Part shown: positions 2,216-61,500 of the stretch, one piece after another
How the letters are laid out: each line of letters opens with the position of its first letter
How positions within the stretch are numbered: position 1 is the stretch's first letter
NCBI GenBank assembly: GCA_963995525.1
Contig: OZ023214.1
Span: 36,925,169-36,989,168, forward strand
Direction of reading: 5' to 3'
DNA length: 64,000 bases
DNA from: Escarpia spicata
Lineage: Eukaryota; Annelida; Polychaeta; Sabellida; Siboglinidae
Position numbers and translations under genes: made by a program
Notes under the pieces: model-generated
Told to the model about the DNA's origin: nothing
The model's input: the letters and a program-made list of their open reading frames with translations, nothing else
Databases searched by the model: none

Positions 2216-2412
2216 ATGAAGCCAAACATGAAGACCAAGGACCTCCTGCTCCAAGCCTATGAGTTTGAGTCGGGGGACCATTGTAGCGGTCTGTTGACGG
2301 GTCTGCACAGCCTGTGGAGACAACAACTCCTATGTGATGTCACTCTTGTGGCCAGCGGTGAGAGCTTCCAAGCTCACAGAGTCGTTCTTGCTTCCTGCAG
2401 CCCATACTTCAG
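2216..2412 (+). CDS. BTB-Kelch (KLHL-type) protein, exon 1 (N-terminus and first half of BTB)
   Basis: First coding exon seen of a kelch-like protein, a family of substrate adaptors for Cullin-3 ubiquitin ligases. Residues 1-66 contain the BTB start: LLCDVTLVASGESFQAHRVV then LASCSPYFR. The frame ends exactly at a strong donor (CAG|GTGAGT, GT at 2413) in phase 2; the split Arg codon AG+A is completed by exon 2 and restores the family string SPYFR-AMFT. I chose the ATG at 2216 (context CACAATGA). An in-frame ATG at 2192 would add eight residues, and the frame is open upstream to about 2090, so the true start or a 5' non-coding exon is unresolved. No promoter is recognisable. Splicing to 11033 implies an 8.6 kb intron. 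Confidence 0.9.
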
Positions 2413-3980
2413 GTGAGTGGTGTATCACAGTGCTTCAATTGGTCAGAAAACATGTAGAATTATTAAAGAAAATTTTCCCTGCACAGAAAAATCAAGGAAT
2501 TTAAACATCAACAAATTTGGAAAAATCAGGGAATTTTAGCTAAATTATTATAAAGCTATAATGAATACTATAACTATGTATAATTAAATCAATCAGAAAT
2601 TTGTTTCCAGCAACAAAATAGTATAAATCTAAATCATTAGGCCCCAATAAAATATAGTTGTGTTTCCTGTAACTTTGATTTTTTAAAATAGGGTAGGTAG
2701 GTAGGAAAAACATTTAATATAAAAAAAAATTATTGCAAACAAAATAGGGTATGCAGACCAATTGTAATATTTTATTTTATTTTCGTCACACTATAAAATT
2801 TCCGGCAGTCTATAATATGGCATATGTTATAACTTGCACTGCTGGGGTTAATATGAAATGGACACATTTGATTGAAACTGGGAGGTACTGTTGTGTATCT
2901 TAATGTGATAAAGAAAACACTGACATCATGCTAAAAATGCACTTGTCTTATTAATTGAACATGAAATATCAAGATAAACTATGGCTTCTAGTTAAACCAT
3001 ACAACCCACCATTTACTTTAATAGGAGCAAAACAAGCTGTAGCACATTTAAATGGTCTTTCATCAGTGTGAGTTACAGAATAAGGAATTGTACATTTAAA
3101 TGATCTTTCAATGTGAGTTACAGTTACAGTCGAACAAAAGCAACCGAATCCAATCATACCTTTTAAAATTAAATCACATTAGAAGCTGCAGTGTGCATCA
3201 TTTATAAACACTGAAATCAAATCATGCCTAAGGCTATCTATTAATACTATGGGCAATTAAAGTAATGTCACTGCCAAAATTTACAATAATATATTAAAGA
3301 AACAAATCCCACAGGCCATGGTCTATGCAAGCTCTGTGTCACTATTATTTTTGTTCAACCATTTTAGCTAGCGCCATATATGACGCCATCCAACAGAATT
3401 TATTAGAATTACCAAACCCAGACTGTATCACTTTGAGCCAGCAGGGGCGCCATGACACTTCGCAACAATTTACGCGGAAATCCATCCAATACTACAGATG
3501 ATCGCAGAATTTCCAATCCAAAAGGCCAATTCTTGTTACTTTTCAGGACTTTTGCAATGACTATCTGTATTTTTATTATGTTGAATGATCGTTGTAATAG
3601 TCTTTTGCCGGAATATAATATAATGTTAAAAGAAACGATTTTTATCAGAAGCAAGTGTCAAGGGTCGGCATCATAGACACATATTTTTCTTTTGTTCTTG
3701 AAAAAATGCATAGGGTCGCACAGAAATACTATGGGCGGTCGGGTTACCGGAAACACAGGTATATATAGTGTTTTGGTACAGGTATGAATAGAAGTATGAG
3801 ACTTATCTATTTAAAATTAAATCAGTTCCTACCGGTAGTGATTCAATGTGCAGTCAAAAGATTTCTTGAATTCAGTCTGAAAAAAGGCAGAAACTCAAGA
3901 GCTATGTATTTGATGCATGGTCTCTCGTTTCCAGAGAAATGAAAACTGGTGTAGCGAAAATCAGTGATATTTTCAATCCA
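2413..3980. other. Intron 1, 5' part
   Basis: AT-rich intronic sequence with little recognisable content. A minus-strand open frame at 2969-3157 has two short strings resembling C2H2 zinc-finger linkers (THIERSFKC and THTDERPFKC), but no complete finger. Otherwise nothing is supported. Confidence 0.5.
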
Positions 3981-4039
3981 TGTAGGGACCAGACCTGCCA
4001 TTTGATACGAATTACCTGTATCCGATACGGATTTTAAAG

Positions 4040-4400
4040 ATTTTTAGTCCTTTGGCCGAAGGTCCAAGGGACTATTGCCATCACTCTGCATCCGCCGTCC
4101 GCCGTTAGCTGCCGTATCTCAGAAACCGTTCAGCAACTTTTTATATATTTTTGCATAGACATATCTTAGGGCACTGCCACTATGCACGAGAAATCTGTAT
4201 TTGATTGAATCATTTTGAGGGCTCCCTAGGACCGCCAAGGACCCCAAAACTGGTAAAAATGTAACATATTGCCTATTTTTTTTTAAACTGTTCAGCAACT
4301 TTTTTTTCTTTATAATTTTGCATAGATGTATCTTAGGGTGTTGCCACTATATACAAGAAATCTGTATTTGATTGAATCATTCTAAGGGGCCCCCAAAGTG
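4040..4400. repeat. Tandemly duplicated ~163-bp repeat in intron 1
   Basis: Two diverged copies begin with TTCAGCAACTTTTT (about 4128 and 4291). Each continues through TTTGCATAGA, TATCTTAGGG, GCCACTAT and GAAATCTGTATTTGATTGAA. A third short piece of the same sequence (GAAATCTGTATTTGATTGAA) recurs at about 5034-5053. The leading sequence from 4040 (GTCCTTTGGCCGAAGGTCCA) resembles a dispersed interspersed repeat; its family is unknown. Confidence 0.65.
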
Positions 4401-4719
4401 CAAAAGTTTTACATTATCTAGTGATGTGGTTTTGAGAAGGGCCCTTGAGACCATCCCCAACAGTAGATTTTGTTTAATGTGCAAGAAAGCCAGCAGCATG
4501 ACTAAATTCTGCAGCCTAGTGCTATTCTTCCATTGAGAGCTTGACTAATCTTTAATTGGTCACATGGCCCAGGCAGAGTAGACACACTTGACCCCTGTTA
4601 GACTGAACAGTTGCCTAAAACTTTTAAACTGTATCTTCAAAACTATTGATTTTCTATAATTGCAAGTTGTGTTTATTTTGATGTTCATTTAATTAAAATG
4701 GTGTGACTGTGGTGTCTAT

Positions 4720-4815
4720 TGGTTAAAGATGTATTGTCTGTAGAAACCTGTAGGTGACAAACATAGAACATTAATATTCTGTCACCTGTAGGTGACAAAC
4801 ATAGAAAATTTATAT
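4720..4815. repeat. ~47-bp tandem duplication
   Basis: CCTGTAGGTGACAAACATAG followed by AA-ATTNATATTCTG occurs twice in direct tandem (starting near 4747 and 4787). Confidence 0.7.
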
Positions 4816-5069
4816 TCTGGACAACTATAGAGTGAAATATCCTACACTTTATTGATATCAAATGCATTCTACTGTTCTGTTTACGCTTGCCATGCCTTGT
4901 GTAGACATGGTACTGTGTAAATCAATTGTATCAATATAGACTAATAATTACAGATTCACAATATAGTTGACACCTGAAACAACCAAATGTCAACCATTAG
5001 AAGAGTTGACATAGTTCCGTTATACACAAGCAAGAAATCTGTATTTGATTGAATCATTCTAGTGTCATC

Positions 5070-6580
5070 AGCATATAGTAGAACATACATTTTTTACATC
5101 ATCATCACTAAGGTTGTTATATATTTCACCAGCTGCCATTTCAAGTCCATTATAATTGTGACTAACAGTGTTTAAAATGATTCAGGTAAATAGCAAATAA
5201 CAAAGGACACAAGTTTTCTCCTTGCCATACCTATACATCACATGAGAAGAAGGCTGACACAGCCTGGCCCTGATTTATACATGATTTAGCATTTTTGTAC
5301 ATGTTTTATACAACTTTCAACACAATACCATTAATACCGCATGAAATTATCTTAGACCACAGGGAGGACCGGTCTACTAAATCAAATGCTTTCTTATAAT
5401 CGATGAAGGCACAATAAAGCCTTTTGCATCGAGACAAATACAGTTCAACCAATACCCCTATTTGAACACTGCCTGTTCTTCACCTATTACATTCGCTTTG
5501 TTTAGGTATGTGGTCAGCCTGGTGTTCTGAACAATCACTAAGGATTAATGAACACTTGTGCAGAATGTCACCCACTTGGCAGGTTTAATTGATCTATTCA
5601 GCAATGAGGACACTGCTTAGGCCTCACTCTGGACACTGTCACTCACAGTGTTGTGTATTGTCTTAGTTGGTGCATTGAGCTAATCTACTTGACCACAAAT
5701 CAGTGGTGGCTCTGTCTGTGTATTACAACCAGCTGTGGAGCTAAGATTCTCTGCCTGCTATCCTGTTTGATGGAAACTGTGACTAATGTGTAATTGGTCA
5801 CTGGCAGTAGCTGGTGTCAACAGACAGCATTAAGCCACTAGACCCCTGTTAAACTAGACAGTTGCCTGTAGGTTTGAAACTGTGTCAAACAGTGAGTCTA
5901 CCTTTTGCTCTCAAATAATCTGTCCTCTTAGTTTTACACATGAAGACATAATCTGGCATAACTTGGTAAGTCTTTGTAGCAGCACATTTGTACTTCCAGT
6001 GTATCATTGCAACATAACATACATATTACATACTGTGTGCCACATTTGAATGTTGTGTATGTAATATTTCCATGCAATCCATTTGCATATATAATGTAAA
6101 ACTTCAACAGCCGTTTTCTTCATTTTCACTTTTTGATCCCTACCATGTTCAATGCTCCATAACTTTGCCAATTTTGTAGCGGTCATAATTTTTGAAACCG
6201 TGCTAAGCACCCTACCAAACCTTTACAAGGATGTAAGAAAACAATGTTACAATTTTTCGGACTTATCACTCATTTGGTCAGCCGGGGTCACATATAGACA
6301 TATTAGTTCAAAGGACTTCAGGGCCACTTGGCCCTTTTTTTAGTAATACGGCCGTACTCCATTTTGATACGGATTTCAATGAAATTTAGAAAAAACCTTT
6401 ATATAGCCACACTATTTACTTGTATGCACCACAAAACCATATTGAAGTCATATCAGTCGAAAATAAACAACAGCTTTCGATGCAATGAAGTAATCATTTA
6501 TTTTAGTGACTAACTTCATCGAAAGAACGAACTGAATCACTGACAATAGTCAGTGATTTAGTTCGTTGTAGCGCGCAATA
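5070..6580. other. Intron 1, middle part
   Basis: Mostly unremarkable. A stretch around 5770-5870 (TGTGTAATTGGTCAC, then GACCCCTGTTAAACTAGACA, GTTGCCTG) is a diverged copy of 4537-4620, so an old duplication of about 90 bases is present. No gene is supported. Confidence 0.45.
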
Positions 6581-6584
6581 GCCA

Positions 6585-7125
6585 ATAGATAGCACGCTCG
6601 TAAAGTGTAGTTCTGAAAAATGCGACAGGCGGCTCAACGGCGACCAGGTGTTGCGCGATTTGAGTGTTCTCGACCCTGCAGCCCATGTGAACCTCACGTA
6701 TGAGCCGACTGTTCGTCTAGCAGCATGCTTTGCCCCCGATGTTGATGCAGAACAGCTGAAAGATGAGTATGTTGGCCGATGACATCAACGTGCTGGAGGA
6801 GGATGGCCAGGCGCGGCAGATCGACCACGTCTGGTTTGAGGTCATCTCAGTCAAGACGCCGTTGCAGGCCGTACGCTTCCCGCTGTCGGCAAAGGTGATG
6901 GCACCGCTAGAGAGGCTGTTTTCCATCTTGCGAAAAATACACACAGATGCACGCCACAGCTTGAAATTGGACACCATTACTGCAAACCTTCAGTGTAAAC
7001 TGAACATCGACAGCCCCTGCCACCGGTTGGCTGTGTCAGCTGAGATGCTGAACTGGCTAAATGTGCAACGAATGCTGAGTCACAGTGAAGAATGTAATTT
7101 GTGGCAGATGTTGGGTATAATGTAA
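6585..7125 (+). pseudogene. hAT-like transposase C-terminal region, frameshifted
   Basis: The plus strand encodes a remnant like the C-terminal dimerisation region of hAT-superfamily transposases. An upstream frame (VLRDLSVLDPAAHVNLTYEP, to about 6768) continues in another frame from 6763 with DHVWFEVIS, FPLSAKVMAPLERLFSILRK and LDTITANLQCKLN, ending at a stop at 7123. The ERLFSILRK string corresponds to the conserved ER-FS box of hAT C-termini. The frame break and lack of an N-terminal catalytic part indicate a dead fragment. A weak match between 3983-4003 and the reverse complement of about 7260-7280 (AGGGACC/GGTCCCT) could be its terminal repeats. It lies in intron 1 of the KLHL-type gene, same strand. 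Confidence 0.65.
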
Positions 7126-7848
7126 GAGTTATAAAATTACGTACTTGTATTCATATGTAGTTATGGTATGCGCAACAAATATATATACATGAATGATATG
7201 GATTGATACAGATTCTTACAGAATTTTAGGTCAAAAATACAGATTGCAACCAAAAAAATATGGGAGATCTGAGGGACCCTGAATATTATCTGTTGCATAC
7301 ACACTGACTCTACTCTAATATAGAGTTGGTAAGTAGAGTTGGTCAAAGATATTGTACGATTTTCATTGGCTACCCTGATTGACTGTTTTCTGAACATAGT
7401 GACAATGTTTCATTTACAATATATTAGTATGTATAACATTTTGGTGGGTTACAAATAATATACATACAAAATGTTATCATCATGGTTTTCCTCTTAATAT
7501 TTTTGAATATATGTATGATTTGATGATGCATTGAAATAAGGCAGCTGACTAGAATCATTATGCATTATAACACCACAAGAGTGAGGGACTACTAAAGATT
7601 TAAGGTAGACATGCAGTATCGAATAAATATGTCTATTGTATAGTTTCAGATGATTTTTAAAGCTGCTTTCTCAACTGGTTTAACCTATCGCGAATCTGGT
7701 TGTTTGGTGTCCAGCTATATATTGGATAAACAGTATAAGTAATATCCGCTGTCGGTTTAATAAAAAAAGTGGTTACATTTGTTTAATTGGTTGAAATAAT
7801 TGACGTTGGTACATGTTCTGGAAATTCGCCAGGCACACAATTAGAGAG
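7126..7848. other. Intron 1, between hAT remnant and SINE
   Basis: AT-rich sequence. Apart from a possible right terminal repeat near 7262-7281, nothing is recognised. Confidence 0.4.
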
Positions 7849-8200
7849 AGTGTGATAGTGTAGTGGTTAGAACATCCGCCTGGCATGCCAGCGCTCTGAG
7901 TTCGAAACCCAGGCCGGGCAGGCATGGCATTTGGTGTAATAACCTGGCTCTCAACATTGGGGACTGTTTATCTGTCATGACTCGGAGATCACGTTAATGT
8001 CGGTCCCGTCTCAATTTGGGACGTAAAAGAACCACTGGGGATGATAAACACCCTGGCAGTGACGCCCCTCAGTGCCAGCATAGAAAGATCGGCTTGGCGA
8101 TAATGTTCTGAAAAAGGCTGACTAGATGAATGAGACCTCATTAGACCATAACATTGTAACCAGTCAGTTAGTAGAACGTTGCCGAGTGCTGGGAACAACT
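7849..8200 (+). mobile_element. tRNA-derived SINE (family 1)
   Basis: The head has RNA polymerase III type 2 promoter-like boxes: an A-box-like TAGTGGTTAGAACA and, about 40 bases on, a B box GAGTTCGAAACCC, in the spacing of a tRNA. CCTGGCATGCCAG sits where the anticodon arm would be. The tRNA-like part is followed by a non-tRNA body (GGGACTGTTTATCTGTCATG, GGGACGTAAAAGAACCACTG, CACCCTGGCAGTGACG). It does not fold as a full functional tRNA by eye, so I call a SINE rather than a tRNA gene. Confidence 0.7.
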
Positions 8201-8700
8201 AGAACAATTAGCCTTCAAACCACAGAACTTGTTGGCCACGTGGTTTTCAAGAGAATTAGTAACCTTGACAACATCAACTCAGAAACACTTGCATAGTCAT
8301 ATCACACAATCACATGAACATTTCAGTTTTGAAAATCTCTTGAATTAATGCTTAGGCAAACACTAAATCATTCATTAACTTTTCTGGTGCTCTCATCAAG
8401 ACTGCAGAAAAATGTGTTCCACAAGCATGTTGGCAGATTGTATTGAATACTAGACATATCTGAATTTTTTTTCACAAAATGAATTTGAAATTAGATTAGT
8501 GAAAAAATAAAATTGAGGAGACACCTTTAATGCCACATAAAATTAATTCCGATTTTTCTTCAGTGCACATAATTTCTCTAAATGTATGAAATACATGGAA
8601 ACTATGATTCGTATCAGGCCAAATAAATTTGTCATATGTAATATTATAGTCATTAACACCTCCATCAGCATACTAAAACTAAAAACTGCACCTCTCATTT
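8201..8700. other. Intron 1, nothing recognised
   Basis: AT-rich, no coding frame or repeat boundary seen. Confidence 0.4.
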
Positions 8701-8704
8701 ACTT

Positions 8705-8820
8705 TTAGTAGCCAAAGTTCTGATGGGAAACAAGGAATTATTTTTATATGGCCTAAAGTCATGGGAATTCATTCCACATTTTAGATGCAGCTACAGAAAA
8801 GTGTGTTTGCCCATTAAACT
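8705..8820 (-). pseudogene. LINE C-terminal tail remnant
   Basis: Read on the minus strand, about 35 codons resemble the terminal motif of many CR1/L2/jockey-like LINE proteins (FSVAAPKLWNSLP type): KHTF, then SVAASKMWNEFPMTLGHIK allowing for one or two frame slips. It is too short and broken to be more than a fragment. Confidence 0.45.
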
Positions 8821-9210
8821 ACATGAACAAGTTAACATTAGTGTGTATCACAATTTGTTACAAAGCTATTTATATCAGCTATCATGGTTCGCAATATAGA
8901 TTTATTTGTAAAAATGCAGAGAACGCTGCTGCCTGGCATCTGGATGTTCTGTGTGTGTATGATCACCAGGTAGCGCCACACAGATGCTGTTACATAATTG
9001 AACTGTGTAATATAAGACATAATCACCAGATGGCGCCATGATAGATAACTGACATCTACTTGAACCAGAGCTTTCACTAACTGTAGAAACTCTTCTTGAA
9101 CTTGCAGCAATTGTCAACAAGAGACTCACTCGTTGTTTCACTCTGAATGTCACTTAAGGTCGATCTGCTTGTGTTGAACTATATGAAGGATAAACTTATA
9201 TGCTGTGTAA

Positions 9211-11040
9211 AGTGTGTTGTGGTTTCAGAGCAATGTGTTGTGGTTTCAGAGCAATGTGTTTTGGTTTCAGAGCAATGTGTTGTGGTTTCAGAACAATGTG
9301 TTGTGGTTTCAGAACAATGTGTTGTGGTTTCAGAGCAATGTGTTGTGGTTTCAGAGCAATGTGTTGTGGTTTCAGAGCAATGTGTTGTGGTTTCAGAACA
9401 ATGTGTTGTGGTTTCATAGCAATGTGTTGTGGTTTCAGAGCAATGTGTTGTGGTTTCATAGCAATGTGTTGTGGTTTCAGAGCAATGTGTTGTGGTTTCA
9501 TAGCAAAGTGTTGTGGTTTCAGAGCAATGTGTTGTGATTTCAGAACAATGTGTTGGTTTCAGAGCAATGTGTTGTGGTTTCAGAACAATGTGTTGTGGTT
9601 TCAGAGCAATATGTTGTGGTTTCAGAACAATGTGTTGTGGTTTCAGAGCAATATGTTGTGGTTTCAGAGCAAGGTGTTGTGGTTTCAGAGCAATATGTTG
9701 TGGTTTCAGAACAATGTGTTGTGGTTTCAGAACAATGTGTTGTGGTTTCAGAGCAATGTGTCGTGGTTTCAGAACAATGTGTTGTGGTTTCAGAGCAATA
9801 TGTTGTGGTTTCAGAGCAAGGTGTTGTGGTTTCAGAGTAATGTATTCTGGTTTCAGAACATTGTGTTGTGGTTTCAGAGCAATGTGTTGTGGTTTCAGAG
9901 CAATGTATTGTGATTTCAGAGTAATGTATTGTGGTTTCAGAGTAATGTATTGTGGTTTCAGAGCAATGTGTTGTGGTTTCAGAGCAATGTGTTGTGGTTT
10001 CAGAGTAATGTATTGTGGTTTCAGAGCAATGTGTTGTGGTTTCAGAGCAATGTGTTGTGGTTTCAGAGCAATGTGTTGTGGTTTCAGAGCAATGTGTTGT
10101 GGTTTCAGAGCAATGTGTTGTGGTTTCAGAGCAATGTGTTGTGGTTTCAGAGTAATGTATTGTGGTTTCAGAGCAATGTGTTGTGGTTTCAGAGCAATGT
10201 GTTGTGGTTTCAGAGTAATGTATTGTGGTTTCAGAGCAATGTGTTGTGGTTTCAGAGCAATGTGTTGTGGTTTCAGAACAATGTGTTGTGGTTTCAGAGC
10301 AATGTGTTGTGGTTTCAGAGCAATGTATTGTGATTTCAGAGTAATGTATTGTGGTTTCAGAGTAATGTATTGTGGTTTCAGAGCAATGTGTTGTGGTTTC
10401 AGAGCAATGTGTTGTGGTTTCAGAGCAATGTGTTGTGGTTTCAGAACATTGTGTTGTGGTTTCAGAGCAATGTGTTGTGGTTTCAGAACAATGTGTTGTG
10501 GTTTCAGAGCAATGTGTTGTGGTTTCAGAGCAATGTGTAGTGGTTTCAGAACAATGTGTTGTGGTTTCAGAGCAATGTGTTGTGGTTTCAGAGCAATGTG
10601 TTGTGGTTTCAGAGCAATGTGTTGTGGTTTCAGAGTAATGTATTGTGGTTTCAGAGCAATGTGTTGTGGTTTCAGAGCAATGTGTTGTGGTTTCAGAACA
10701 TTGTGTTGTGGTTTCAGAGCAATGTGTTGTGGTTTCAGAACAATGTGTTGTGGTTTCAGAGCAATGTGTTGTGGTTTCAGAGCAATGTGTAGTGGTTTCA
10801 GAGCAATGTGTTGTGGTTTCAGAGCAATGTGTTGTGGTTTCAGAGCAATGTGTTGTGGTTTCAGAACAATGTGTTGTGGTTTCAGAGCAATGTGTAGTGG
10901 TTTCAGAACAATGTGTTGTGGTTTCAGAGCAATGTGTTGTGGTTTCAGAGCAATGTGTTGTGGTTTCAGAGCAATGTGTTGTGGTTTCAGAGCAATGTGT
11001 TGTGGTTTCAGAACAATGTGTTGTGGTTTCAGAGCAATGT
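9211..11040 (+). repeat. 21-bp minisatellite made of the exon 2 splice acceptor (87 copies)
   Basis: A near-perfect tandem array whose unit is AGCAATGT (identical to the first eight bases of exon 2) plus GTTGTGGTTTCAG (identical to the last 13 bases of intron 1). CAG sites run from 9226 to 11030 at 21-base intervals, with a single 2-bp deletion near 9556 that separates 16 upstream from 71 downstream sites; the last site is the presumed authentic acceptor. Variants include CAGAACAAT, CAGAGTAATGTATT, CATAGCAAT and TGTAGTGG. Downstream of 9504 the frame shared with exon 2 is open throughout and reads a heptad (CCGFRAM, with variants). Block duplications of 147, 252 and 420 bp (7, 12 and 20 units) are visible. 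Long open frames in all directions here are repeat artefacts. Confidence 0.98.
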
Positions 11041-11157
11041 TTACGAATGAGATGAAGGAGCAACATCAGGACGAGATAGAACTCAACGGAGTCTCAGCTA
11101 TTGGAGTCGGCCACCTCGTCCACTATGCATACACGTCTAAGCTGACCATTGATCTCT
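11033..11157 (+). CDS. BTB-Kelch (KLHL-type) protein, exon 2 (second half of BTB core)
   Basis: This 125-base exon encodes residues 67-107. It starts in the middle of the split Arg66 codon (A, then GCA ATG TTT ACG) and ends at donor CTCT|GTAAGT (GT at 11158) in phase 1; its final T joins GC of exon 3 to give Cys108. The product AMFTNEMKEQHQDEIELNGV, then YAYTSKLTIDL, is the canonical BTB continuation and includes M-K-E at the place of the hydrophobic-X-Glu motif that contacts Cullin-3 in relatives. Its acceptor, GTGGTTTCAG, is the last of 87 near-identical copies, so local sequence does not mark it out from the decoys. The frame would run into intron 2 and stop at 11183 if unspliced. Confidence 0.9.
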
Positions 11158-11235
11158 GTAAGTACAGGCTAGTGACCATCTAGTTGAACATACACCGATT
11201 GTAATGCATGCACATTGGATATCATGCAGCATGTA
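11158..11235. other. Intron 2, 5' end
   Basis: Short intronic stretch between the exon 2 donor and the hAT-type element; it ends in ATGTA, which is repeated after the element. Confidence 0.6.
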
Positions 11236-13090: not shown

Positions 13091-13490
13091 TACACATTCA
13101 CACATGCATGTTCACAAATACACACATGCATGCATGCATGTGCACACGCATGCACGTATACATATACGCGCATGTGCGCACACACAGTGTCACACATGCA
13201 TGCACACATTAACACTGTTAACTCATTCGTGCACACATACACACACAAGCATGCAAACACACACATTTTCACTCACTCACTCACTCACTCACTCACTCAC
13301 TCACTCACTCACTCACTCACTCACTCACTCACTCACTCACTCACTCACTCACTCTCCCACCCACCCATGCACTCACTCATTCACTCTCAAGCACCCACCC
13401 ACTCACCCACTCACTTACTCACCCACTCACTCACTCTCTCACCCACCCATTCACTCGTCAACACACTCACTCAACGGACCCACCCACTGT
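13091..13490. repeat. CA/CATG-rich then (TCAC)n microsatellite next to the exon 3 acceptor
   Basis: ACACATGCATG-type sequence (13091-13265) leads into a pure TCAC tetranucleotide run (about 13270-13353) and then degenerate CACCCACTCA repeats to about 13480. It ends only about 70 bases before the exon 3 acceptor. Confidence 0.95.
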
Positions 13491-13558: not shown

Positions 13559-15048
13559 GCAATGTGCAGGACATCCTTGATGCTGCCAACCACCTCCAGG
13601 TGGTGCCAGTGGTGGCCGCATGCTCCCACTACCTCCGCTCACAACTCGACATCGACAACTGCCTTGACCTCCTCACCATAGCCGAGACCTACACCCTCCC
13701 CGATCTGTGCCAGTATCTCTACTGCTACATGGGCCAGAACCTTGGTCGACTCTCCTGTCTCCCGCAGTTCCAGCGACTCTCAGCGGAACAGCTGAAGTGC
13801 CTGCTGAAGCAGAACTACCCGATCGAGTGCTTGGAAGCGGAAGTCCTCCAAGCCGTGCTCTCATGGATAGTGTTCAATCTGAACACCCGTCAGCAGCACG
13901 CCGAGGCAATTCTCTCCTGCATCCGATACCGTTACATCAGCAAGGCAGAGTTCCAGGGCATCCGACAAGGCACAGTGTTCCGCGAGATCTGTCGGCAATG
14001 GTCGAAGGTGTTCTCCTTGGTTCATTCGGCACTGATGAAATCATGGTCGCGATGCCAACACGCTCCAGTCATCGACCGACATGGTCTGATAAACCCTCGG
14101 GGCTTCGACAAGGCGATTGTCAACATCGGTGGATTCCAGACGGTGAAGGGCATCACGAACAACCTCAGTTACCGCCATGTTGGCAGCGACAAGTGGTACC
14201 ACCTGACGAGCATTCCGCACATCGACCAATGCGATTTCGGTGTGGCGGTCGTCGACAATTTGCTGTATGTGATTGGCGGTTGCTTTAATCAATCGCTACA
14301 GGAGCACGTGCATCCGTTCGGCTTCTGCTACAACCCGCAGCGCGACAAGTGGATTACGACGGCACCGATGTTGCAGGAGAGATGTCGGTTCTATCTCGGC
14401 AGCGTCAACAAGAAACTTTATGCCATCGGTGGTGTTGGTGAACAAGACAGCTTCCGGGTGGAACACAACTGCGAGTGCTACGATATCAAGACGAACTCGT
14501 GGAGCATTGTATCACCGATGCCGACCAATCTGATGCAGCAGGCTGGAGCTGTCATCGGGCGAAACATCTACGTGTGTGGCGGCTTGGACGCCAACGACTT
14601 TGTGTCATCCCCGCTTAGCTGCTACAATACGGTCACCGACATGTGGACACAGAAGCCGGACATGTTGATGCCTCGTGCTGACCACTGCATGGTGGCACAC
14701 GGCGGATGTCTGTATGTTGCCGGGGGGTGGTATGAGGACTCAGCGACAGGAAATCGCATCATCCTTGATAGTATCGACTGCTATAACGTGCACACGCAGC
14801 AGTGGATGACAGTAACACGCATGCCGACACCATGCTACCAAGCCAGTATGGTCGTCATCAATGGCGTACTCTACGTGATTGGAGGGTTTACAATGGGTCC
14901 TTCCGGTCGCCAAGCAACCAGTAGGGTGGAGGCGTACAGCTTGAAACGAAACATGTGGGAGACCGATTCCAACTTTCCCACGGAACTCTGGGAGCATCTG
15001 TCATGTGTGCTTTATATTCCTCTATGTCGTGCTGATAGTTATTATTAA
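13559..15048 (+). CDS. BTB-Kelch (KLHL-type) protein, exon 3 (BTB end, BACK, six Kelch repeats)
   Basis: The large terminal exon encodes residues 108-603, stop TAA at 15046. Acceptor TTATACAG|GC gives NVQDILDAANHLQ, the usual end of the BTB domain. The BACK domain follows (about 150-260, e.g. LSAEQLKCLLKQN and AILSCIRYRYISKAEF). Six Kelch blades follow from about 290 to 595, with GG doublets in VNIGGFQ, LYVIGGCF, LYAIGGVG, IYVCGGLD, LYVAGGWY and LYVIGGFT, and downstream Trp in most blades. The total of 603 residues is normal for KLHL proteins. The C-terminus (W-E-T-D-x-N-F-P) is like the KLHL9/13/26 or KLHL15 groups, but orthology cannot be decided here. The coding sequence is GC-rich compared with its surroundings and has no internal break, so the gene appears intact and presumably serves as a Cullin-3 substrate adaptor. 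Confidence 0.95.
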
Positions 15049-15410
15049 ATAGGAAACAACGACGCTTGATAGCATGACTGTTTTAAGTGCGTCGGCGATG
15101 CTTTTGAAGAAACAGTGGCTGAACACAATGACATAGTCTAACTTCGATTTTATTATTTGCACTTGAAAATATCTGCCATGCTTTTTATCTTCATCAGAAA
15201 ACTGTTTCATTAATTTTGTGTAAGTATTTGGTATAAGTGTAGTTTCTGTAATAGAATTAGACTGGCTTTTGATGTTGTATTTCTTAATGTAGAAAACATG
15301 TAAAGCAGCAAGTTTTCAAAGTACAAAGGTTAAGACGACAGCCACAAAGGCAGCACTGCTAGTGTTTCTTTAAAGGGAGGTAGTCAATTTGTTGTTAATG
15401 TAAAATAATG
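15049..15410. other. KLHL-type 3' flank / probable 3' UTR
   Basis: AT-rich sequence after the stop codon. I do not see a convincing polyadenylation signal close by, so the 3' UTR end is unknown and may include the following minisatellite. Confidence 0.4.
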
Positions 15411-15715
15411 TTTTACAGTATAAACTATATCTACTATAACATACTAACTGCCAAAATATGTTATGCAGTATAAACTATATCTACTATAACATACTGACCG
15501 CCCAAATATGTTATGCAGTATAAACTATATCTACTATAACATACTAACCGCCCAAATATGTTTTACAGTATAAACTATATCAACTTTAACATACTAACTG
15601 CTCAAATATGTTATACAGTATAAACTATATCTACTATAACATATTAACTGCCCAAATATGTTATACAGTATAAACTATATCTACTATGACGTGCTAACTG
15701 CCCAAATATGTTTTA
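15411..15715. repeat. 50-bp minisatellite, six units
   Basis: TAAACTATAT begins at 15421, 15471, 15521, 15571, 15621 and 15671, exactly 50 bases apart. Each unit reads TAAACTATATCTACTATAAC, then ATACTAACTG, CCCAAATATG, TTATACAGTA. It may be transcribed in the 3' UTR of the KLHL-type gene. Confidence 0.97.
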
Positions 15716-50350: not shown

Positions 50351-51180
50351 CTATTTTGTTTTGTTTTTGCATTTATTTACATTTATTTTTAAATGTTTGG
50401 TCAAAAAATGTTTAATCCAAAGGTGGGTCCTGGCTCTAATTCCATAGAGATCCAGTTTGTTCAAGAGTCGATTGTGAGGGACAGTGTCGAAAGCCTTAGA
50501 GAAGTCTAGAAGTATAAGATCAAGGATGCTCATCAAGTCATGGATCGTCGTGAGCAGTGAAGTCTCACAGGAACGTCTACGTCTAAAGCCATGTTGTCGG
50601 TCAGTAAGAATATTGTGGGATTCAGGGTGGTTATGGATTGATTTGGATATAATGTGCTCAAGAATGTTGCAGGGTATAATAGTAAGGGAGACTGGTCGAT
50701 AGTTAATAGCAGCTGTTCTGTCATTCTTTTTGTAAATGGGAACTTTATGTGCTTTGAGCCAGTCTAAGGGGACAGTTTCGGAGTGTATTGATTTCTGGAA
50801 TATAGTTGGCAGGATGGGTGTTATTTTGGAGGCCATTTTCTTCAGGATTCTGGTAGGGATGTTGTCTGGACCTTGGGTTTTGTTTGGTTTTATATCTTTC
50901 AGTAATTTCTTGACACCTTTCACTGTTATTTGGTTGGGGGGCATATGTGGGGATCGATTTTGGTTGGGGAGATGGGGGATGTTATCCAGGCTTTCGTTGG
51001 TGAACACAGATTGGAATTGTCTTGAAAGAATGTCTGCTTTGGATTTGCTATCTGTGTGCAGGGATGCCTTTATCTTTAGTGGGGAGATTCCTGTTGTATC
51101 TTTGTTGAGCGATTTAATGTAGTGCCAGAACAAATTATTTTGTTTGTCTTGTTCCGGGTCTACTATATGTACAATATATT
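50351..51180 (-). pseudogene. LINE reverse transcriptase, N-terminal half (3'-truncated)
   Basis: A clean minus-strand frame of 260 codons reads FWHYIKSLNKDTTGISPLKI, GVKKLLKDIKPNKTQGPDNI, LDWLKAHKVPIYKKNDRTAA, INYRPVSLTIIPCNILEHII, HGFRRRRSCETSLL and ILLDFSKAFDTVPHNRLLNK. These are the fingers and palm motifs, including the first catalytic Asp (DFSKAFDT), of a CR1/L2/jockey-like LINE. After HLWIKHFLTK the homology stops near 50405, so the YADD box and thumb are missing. The lack of stops suggests recent truncation. It continues upstream into the endonuclease at 51.3-52.2 kb. Confidence 0.9.
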
Positions 51181-61300: not shown

Positions 61301-61500
61301 NNNNNNNNNNNNNNNNNNNNNNNNNNNNNNNNNNNNNNNNNNNNNNNNNNNNNNNNNNNNNNNNNNNNNNNNNNNNNNNNNNNNNNNNNNNNNNNNNNNN
61401 NNNNNNNNNNNNNNNNNNNNNNNNNNNNNNNNNNNNNNNNNNNNNNNNNNNNNNNNNNNNNNNNNNNNNNNNNNNNNNNNNNNNNNNNNNNNNNNNNNNN
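61301..61500. other. Assembly gap (200 N)
   Basis: Exactly 200 unknown bases, probably a fixed-size placeholder. Open frames reported across it have no meaning. Confidence 0.99.

Follow-up and report, generated by a model that had tools for sequence, protein, structure and literature searches.

What becomes of a gene when the end of an intron, together with the start of the following exon, is copied over and over again? Tandem duplications of an exon-intron boundary were named mirages in the lancelet, where they were described in Adh3 and in the globins BflGb6 and BflGb9 (PMC3087553). A kelch-like gene of the annelid Escarpia spicata poses this question through the last 1.8 kb of its first intron. 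How did an array of splice junctions arise here, and how would one acceptor be chosen out of it? To approach these questions, we analyzed a window of 64,000 nt (GCA_963995525.1, OZ023214.1, positions 36,925,169 to 36,989,168, forward strand), to which all coordinates without a locus prefix refer. The window lies on contig C11, which spans 61 Mb in an assembly of 1.06 Gb and 1,097 contigs.

A KLHL26-like gene and the array at its first acceptor

The three coding exons (Table 1) join into an intact coding sequence with a spliced product of 603 aa, in which Pfam places a BTB domain (residues 31 to 136), a BACK domain (142 to 240), and then Kelch repeats up to residue 576. Many of the best 120 of 425 protein matches are named kelch-like protein 26, and others diablo or kelch-like 9, 10, 12, and 13; within the same best 120, the two best named homologs are hypothetical proteins of the annelids Capitella (51%) and Paralvinella (52%). 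From these matches we refer to the gene, provisionally, as KLHL26-like, in line with the KLHL exon that the original prediction had recognized from the letters of the DNA. Two metagenome proteins, P0001 and P0002, match exon 3 at 83 to 84%, indicating that a near relative exists. Exon 2 has a single match in the genome assembly and exon 3 has one at 99%, the next locus being a different KLHL at 31%; neither search revealed a second copy of the gene in the assembly. The predicted donor of intron 1 also stands where it had been placed.

Table 1. Features of the KLHL26-like gene in the window, and boundary arrays at other loci of the genome.
Feature	Location	Strand	Details
Exon 1, coding part	2216..2412	+	Ends ...CCATACTTCAG, phase 2; from spliced translation
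Intron 1 donor GTGAGT	2413..2418	+	GT at 2413-2414; last base of exon 1 is 2412
CTTAT, branch-point-like yUnAy motif	9195..9199	+	A at 9198, 30 nt before the G of the first unit's AG; consensus match only
Boundary minisatellite, 87 units x 21 bp	9213..11040	+	87th unit holds the true acceptor; last TGT in exon 2
Stretch with three TTTCAT copies	9413..9501	+	AG lost; yUnAy motif TTCAT gained at 9413, 9455, and 9497
19-bp unit with 2-bp deletion	9544..9562	+	Decoys upstream are out of frame with exon 2
Intron 1 true acceptor AG	11031..11032	+	Predicted from YFRAM across the junction in homologs
Exon 2 (BTB)	11033..11157	+	Followed by donor GTAAGT at 11158
TCAC microsatellite, intron 2	13269..13473	+	Ends 85 bp before exon 3
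Exon 3 (rest of BTB, BACK, Kelch)	13559..15048	+	Includes the stop codon
Array at another KLHL, acceptor	L014:635-1520, exon at L014:1507; G000:C3 ~58862788-58863673		32 bp x 28
Array at a third KLHL, donor	L021:2296-2732; G000:C6 from ~34588980		57 bp x 7.6
Array at an RRM exon, donor	L071:662-1177; G000:C1 from ~80119720		40 bp x 12.8
Array at a kinase exon, acceptor side	L042:2062-3368; G000:C1 near 18936477-18937783		42 bp x 27; partial fit

Tandem Repeats Finder calls the array at period 21 with 87.1 copies and 93% matches. Each unit consists of the 13 terminal bases of intron 1 and the first 8 of exon 2, and the last one (11017 to 11037) contains the AG at 11031 to 11032 with its exon bases, so that the intron-exon boundary itself was amplified, as had been claimed, and the array ends inside exon 2. 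The 87 TTTCA[G/T] cores are spaced by 21 bp in 85 cases and by 19 bp in one, the latter being the 2-bp deletion foreseen near 9556. Eighty-four cores read TTTCAG, the true acceptor counted, and three read TTTCAT; the 86 decoys of the original prediction are therefore 86 upstream copies, 83 of which carry an AG. The decoys had also been called locally indistinguishable from the true site, which holds for 11 of the 86 upstream copies over -20 to +3 and for 8 over -20 to +8. Most copies differ from it, however, and identity falls to 1 copy over -80 to +8 and to none over -100 to +8.

Thirteen substitution types occur among the copies in a nonperiodic order, and some blocks are duplicated within the array, such as seven units at 10402 that recur at 10654. 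The exon-proximal end is the most uniform, with 0.33 mismatches per unit in units 81 to 86. A higher-order repeat period was sought and rejected, since the best lag (7 units, 37% identity) stays below the 95% shuffle limit of 41%. Could the array be an artefact of assembly? Repeats of 1.8 kb can be mis-sized, and one lancelet mirage appeared misassembled in a draft genome (PMC3087553), but the variety and order of the substitutions, the duplicated blocks, flanks that each match the genome once, and a contig of 61 Mb leave an artefact with very little probability.

Other features of the window were recorded along with the gene. The TCAC microsatellite of intron 2 holds 41 YCAY motifs, presumably Nova sites, and 32 yUnAy motifs; both introns of the gene thus carry a tandem array near the acceptor. 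A minisatellite of 50 bp x 6.2 (15403 to 15712) begins 355 bp past the stop codon. Farther away lie a reverse-transcriptase fragment on the minus strand (50354 to 51133; Pfam RVT_1, E value 1.9e-12) and a run of 200 N (61301 to 61500) that is probably an assembly gap.

Origin of the array

Where does the unit come from? The exact unit occurs 41 times in the 1.06-Gb genome and 84 times at up to 2 mismatches, with all 84 matches inside the array and none found elsewhere genome-wide at that threshold; the reversed unit, searched through the whole genome as a control at up to 2 mismatches, gave no match. At this threshold the unit is private to the locus, indicating that the array was born here. 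The left flank (9000 to 9212) also has one genome match. Among the best 120 of the 425 homologs, 116 have a BLAST match to the first 133 residues and 112 span the junction of exons 1 and 2. None of these 112 has an insert at the junction, and 108 have YFRAM across it, the RAM of which is encoded by the exon bases of the unit, indicating that the exon sequence is the older part and that the array was derived from it. The translation of the array (frame 9513 to 11180) found no protein relative at an E value of ≤10 among 752 candidates. Viral contigs searched for relatives of the array gave none, and bacterial and archaeal genome contigs with P0002 gave six pattern-matching stretches, none of which was confirmed.

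A second copy of the junction could have arisen by slippage duplication between two TGT triplets, the one that opens the unit and the one within the exon (AATGTTT), and the remaining copies could have been added afterwards by duplication of blocks and by conversion; the duplicated blocks inside the array argue for such stepwise growth. Growth would be tolerated because each added copy sits upstream of the outermost junction and is removed with the intron. By its sequence the array is, structurally, a mirage: the unit spans the boundary, the splice signal is present in 84 of 87 copies, and the copies were born locally, a feature that we added to the definition.

The lancelet cases are the closest relatives in kind. 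Troponin C was later added to them, and PGBD5 repeats were likened to mirages (PMC3902484). As in the E. spicata array, boundary copies, which in the lancelet lie on the acceptor or the donor side, resemble a minisatellite and many, not all, keep the splice dinucleotide, and the 21-bp unit falls within the 10 to 72 bp reported for lancelet Adh3 (PMC3087553, PMC3902484). Length differences between haplotypes or cells also belong to the description of mirages. RT-PCR suggested normal splicing of lancelet mirages (PMC3087553). However, BflGb6 has 6 and 3 units in the part of the lancelet report used here, compared to 87 in the annelid, so normal splicing there may not carry over. The annelid unit also differs in having no yUnAy branch-point motif. 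The ends of the cluster in one lancelet globin escaped homogenization, whereas the exon-proximal end is the most uniform in E. spicata. No mirage from an annelid is described in the literature searched, by searches that were not aimed at annelid mirages. Taking these lines together, we consider it probable that a minisatellite grew from the 3' splice junction of intron 1 as a neutral mirage, and that most mRNA joins 2412 to 11033 with some leakage to the decoys.

Acceptor choice and the products of the decoys

The choice among these acceptors is a real puzzle, as the original prediction held: the 1.5 kb that precede the true site hold no yUnAy motif. Between 9100 and 11033, such motifs start at 9125, 9137, and 9195 before the array and at 9413, 9455, and 9497 in the CAT copies, where each TTCAT lies 22 nt before the AG of the next copy; none starts after 9497 up to 11033. 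The CTTAT at 9195 is probably the ancestral branch point, to judge from its position, which would give an ordinary intron-end layout. On a simple ad hoc motif score devised for this analysis, 24 of the 87 copies beat the true acceptor and another 62 equal it, and a score as low as that of the true site is reached by only 12% of 2,849 AGs taken from the rest of the window. The missing motif and the low score mean that the branch-point picture speaks against easy use of this site. The spliceosome strongly prefers the first AG past the branch point (PMC7317903), and a strict first-AG rule applied from the 9198 motif predicts an early decoy (9228), 1.8 kb upstream, with a frameshift.

What would the decoys encode? 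The frame of exon 2 is open back to 9504, as had been claimed. When joined to exons 1 and 3, 70 of the 83 AG decoys keep the KLHL frame through the normal stop, the same number as predicted; the other 13 shift the frame and lead to a stop after 188 to 293 residues, compared to 16 in the original prediction, which had counted the three CAT copies. Does the array then break the gene? If the original branch point still drove splicing into the early decoys, frame-shifted mRNA would leave a low-output or broken allele. The CTTAT 30 nt before the first AG, the lack of a yUnAy motif in the last 1.5 kb, the early stops from the 13 distal decoys, and the strong first-AG preference (PMC7317903) all fit such damage, but the coding sequence is intact over three exons, no second copy that could compensate was found, and an array that silences its gene would not be expected to persist. 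We regard a damaged allele as unlikely.

The intact coding sequence and the lack of another copy favor exon definition in spite of the first-AG prediction. Under the mirage reading, the GTAAGT donor that follows exon 2 (125 nt) would, through exon definition, make the exon-proximal site the main acceptor, and a weak branch adenosine in the last units could be used, the TTTCA of the previous unit lying 22 nt upstream. Neighboring decoys would leak at a low level and yield proteins longer by 7n residues, while leakage to distal copies would produce frame-shifted mRNA subject to nonsense-mediated decay. A fold of the array that brings the 9198 branch point to the true site is also possible. In the predicted structure of 9150 to 11100 (minimum free energy, -590 kcal/mol), 51 steps lead through the fold from 9198 to 11032; of the 83 decoys, 81 have a paired A in their AG and 2 a paired G. 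A 168-nt piece of the array is more stable than all 200 of its shuffles (z = -2.66). The consensus, compared with shuffled 21-mers in 20 copies, was equaled or exceeded in stability by 41 of 100 dinucleotide and 51 of 100 mononucleotide shuffles; it folds in an ordinary way, and such a link between the old branch point and the true site thus receives no special support.

Could the decoys serve the protein? Use of an in-frame decoy would add (AMCCGFR)n after SPYFR and before AMFT, which is the heptad and the place originally claimed, up to rotation, and the Cullin-3 contact presumably lies just downstream. A unit of 3 x 7 bp, the 70 of 83 AG decoys in frame, and the stop-free stretch from 9504 would suit regulated or useful BTB-length isoforms that vary with allele length. 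A stop in the exon 2 frame results from only 3 of the 63 single-base changes that the unit can undergo, however, and 10 substitution types occur in the in-frame part, so an open frame is expected and tells little about function. The insert would sit within the folded BTB domain, two of the four boundary arrays at other loci are built of 32- and 40-bp units, and neither the 112 junction-spanning homologs nor the 752 candidates offered a counterpart of the inserted sequence. Useful isoforms are therefore improbable; a functional isoform population is possible by frame arithmetic, and the population of BTB-length isoforms raised by the original prediction found no support in these comparisons.

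Other genes show what near-equal splice sites can do. NAGNAG tandem acceptors are two sites 3 nt apart, the choice between which changes the protein by whole codons; the array offers the same kind of choice between like acceptors, but among 84 sites over 1.8 kb. A donor-side repeat in intron 7 of coagulation factor VII, for which the literature was searched, is not described in the passages found and does not serve as a comparison. The first two bases of the 25-bp unit of the human ABCA7 intron 18 VNTR, present in ~12 to 427 copies, are those of the exon 18 donor, and an isoform that retains one unit makes up ~2% of transcripts (PMC5954066). In the same report, skipping of exon 19 grows with repeat length, reaching 12% in cell lines and 45% in brain area BA10, where alternative transcripts exceed canonical ones in 90% of cases (PMC5954066). 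This length effect means that a boundary repeat need not be silent. In both genes the decoys adjoin the real site, but ABCA7 is a donor-side case with a measured effect (PMC5954066), whereas the E. spicata array is on the acceptor side. Internal tandem repeats across exon-intron boundaries also alter splicing patterns in human duplicated genes, which are paralogs in segmental duplications, unlike the KLHL26-like gene, for which a second copy was not found (PMC2812944).

Boundary arrays at other loci of the genome

Is this array a singular accident? We ran Tandem Repeats Finder on 84 further loci, some of which come from one gene or are near-identical copies, so that they are not 84 independent genes. 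They comprise 18 other KLHL-like loci (the best 20 of 99 matches minus two of the KLHL26-like gene) and, in a survey extended after two KLHL arrays had been seen, the best 30 of 137 kinase matches and 36 of 103 RRM matches, taken in rank order with 20 ranked ones passed over, mostly near neighbors. Arrays lie at the edge of a recognized exon in four of the 84 loci, two at acceptors and two at donors, one of them a partial fit (Table 1).

At another KLHL (L014), the likely upstream exon 1 ends TTTCAC|GTAAGT and exon 2 begins CAG|GTGCACAAG (SFH|VHKVLLAATSDYFRAM). Its unit consists of the acceptor and the exon start, identical to them at 17 of 21 exon and 9 of 11 intron positions. The GTAAGT donor at L031:6483, provided that it is part of this gene, would give an intron of ~4.0 kb. 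The third KLHL (L021) has an array whose unit is the exon end RTRPRKASG followed by GTAAGT, equal in 22 of 22 exon bases and with a length that is a multiple of three. At the RRM exon (L071), which we take to be RBMS-like, the unit is made of 35 exon bases, all 35 equal, and GTGAG, with 11 donor-like AG|GT[AG]A[AG] copies. The partial fit concerns the kinase exon (L042), presumably PAK-like: its unit has CTCTAATGTCCCTC and CAG|TG in common with the true acceptor. However, ~8 extra bases are inserted at the true site, the called array ends ~12 nt short of the exon, and the similarity to the exon is weak. As a separate observation, the L042 unit holds CTAAT, a pyrimidine stretch, and CAG, a near-complete acceptor module, whereas the KLHL26-like unit has no yUnAy motif.

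With unit lengths of 32 bp (L014) and 40 bp (L071), frame keeping is no rule, and boundary arrays evidently arise without an isoform function. All genome matches to the L042 unit (18, allowing 2 mismatches) and to the L014 unit (12, allowing 3) fall within their own loci, and all four arrays are unrelated in sequence to the KLHL26-like array. The last point bears on a further possibility, that the KLHL26-like array is retained for a regulatory function, as an enhancer within the intron or as a sink, through copies of TGTGGTTT, which we take to be the RUNX/enhancer-core motif. The motif occurs 87 times in the window compared to 5.0 expected, with 77 copies in the array, but this count follows from the copying of the unit, the other boundary arrays differ in sequence, and the RUNX identity is presumptive; a regulatory role of this kind is hardly credible.

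The direction of events could also be reversed, an exonic tandem duplication with a proto-splice site having turned into an intron. Intron gain of this sort has been suggested for globins of the lancelet, for Drosophila, and for paralogs in humans (PMC3087553, PMC2891723, PMC2812944), and the L071 unit, of which 35 of 40 bases are exonic, would suit it. In the KLHL26-like unit, however, 13 of 21 bases are intronic, and the intron measures 8.6 kb, with the array confined to 1.8 kb at one end; both points make intron gain quite improbable at this locus. We thus retain the reading of a mirage seeded by an existing junction.

Do arrays fall on exon edges more often than expected by chance? The placement test used 13 arrays with a period of at least 15 and at least 5 copies from the first 78 loci, simple sequence excluded (the AT-rich array of L074 and the CA arrays of L085), and 20,000 random placements. 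It gave four boundary arrays compared to 0.66 expected, with at least four in 0.2% of placements and, without L042, at least three in 2.4%, under a design made after the matches had been seen and with arrays and edges chosen by hand; six later loci added no such array. This enrichment is a lead, not proof. The share of ~168 recognized exon edges with an array is 2.4% for four arrays and 1.8% for three. Arrays of the same class at L022 (two), L047, L050, L051, L054 (two), L082, and L085 were judged to lie off the recognized exon, the first array of L054 by reading the exon start and the others by distance or array ends alone, and they may touch other, unrecognized exons. A dense cluster of KLHL-like matches with many long open frames at G000:C1:22.9-23.7 Mb was seen besides, suggesting a local KLHL expansion.

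Boundary minisatellites were so far chiefly lancelet and human cases in the literature examined, and there are now several in an annelid, which suggests that they are a wider by-product of minisatellite growth hidden by splicing. A broader proposal, which we hold only tentatively, is that splice junctions are preferred birthplaces of minisatellites, with arrays at at least 1% of exon edges, and that the KLHL26-like gene, with its 84 near-identical acceptors and yUnAy-free last 1.5 kb, is spliced at the exon-proximal site or spread over the last few, giving BTB isoforms that depend on allele length. In any case, 84 consecutive, nearly equal acceptors amount to a natural experiment: the distribution of junctions over them would show how first-AG scanning, branch-point strength, and exon definition compare in their influence on the choice. 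Boundary arrays would also be raw material for the lengthening of introns and for intron gain.
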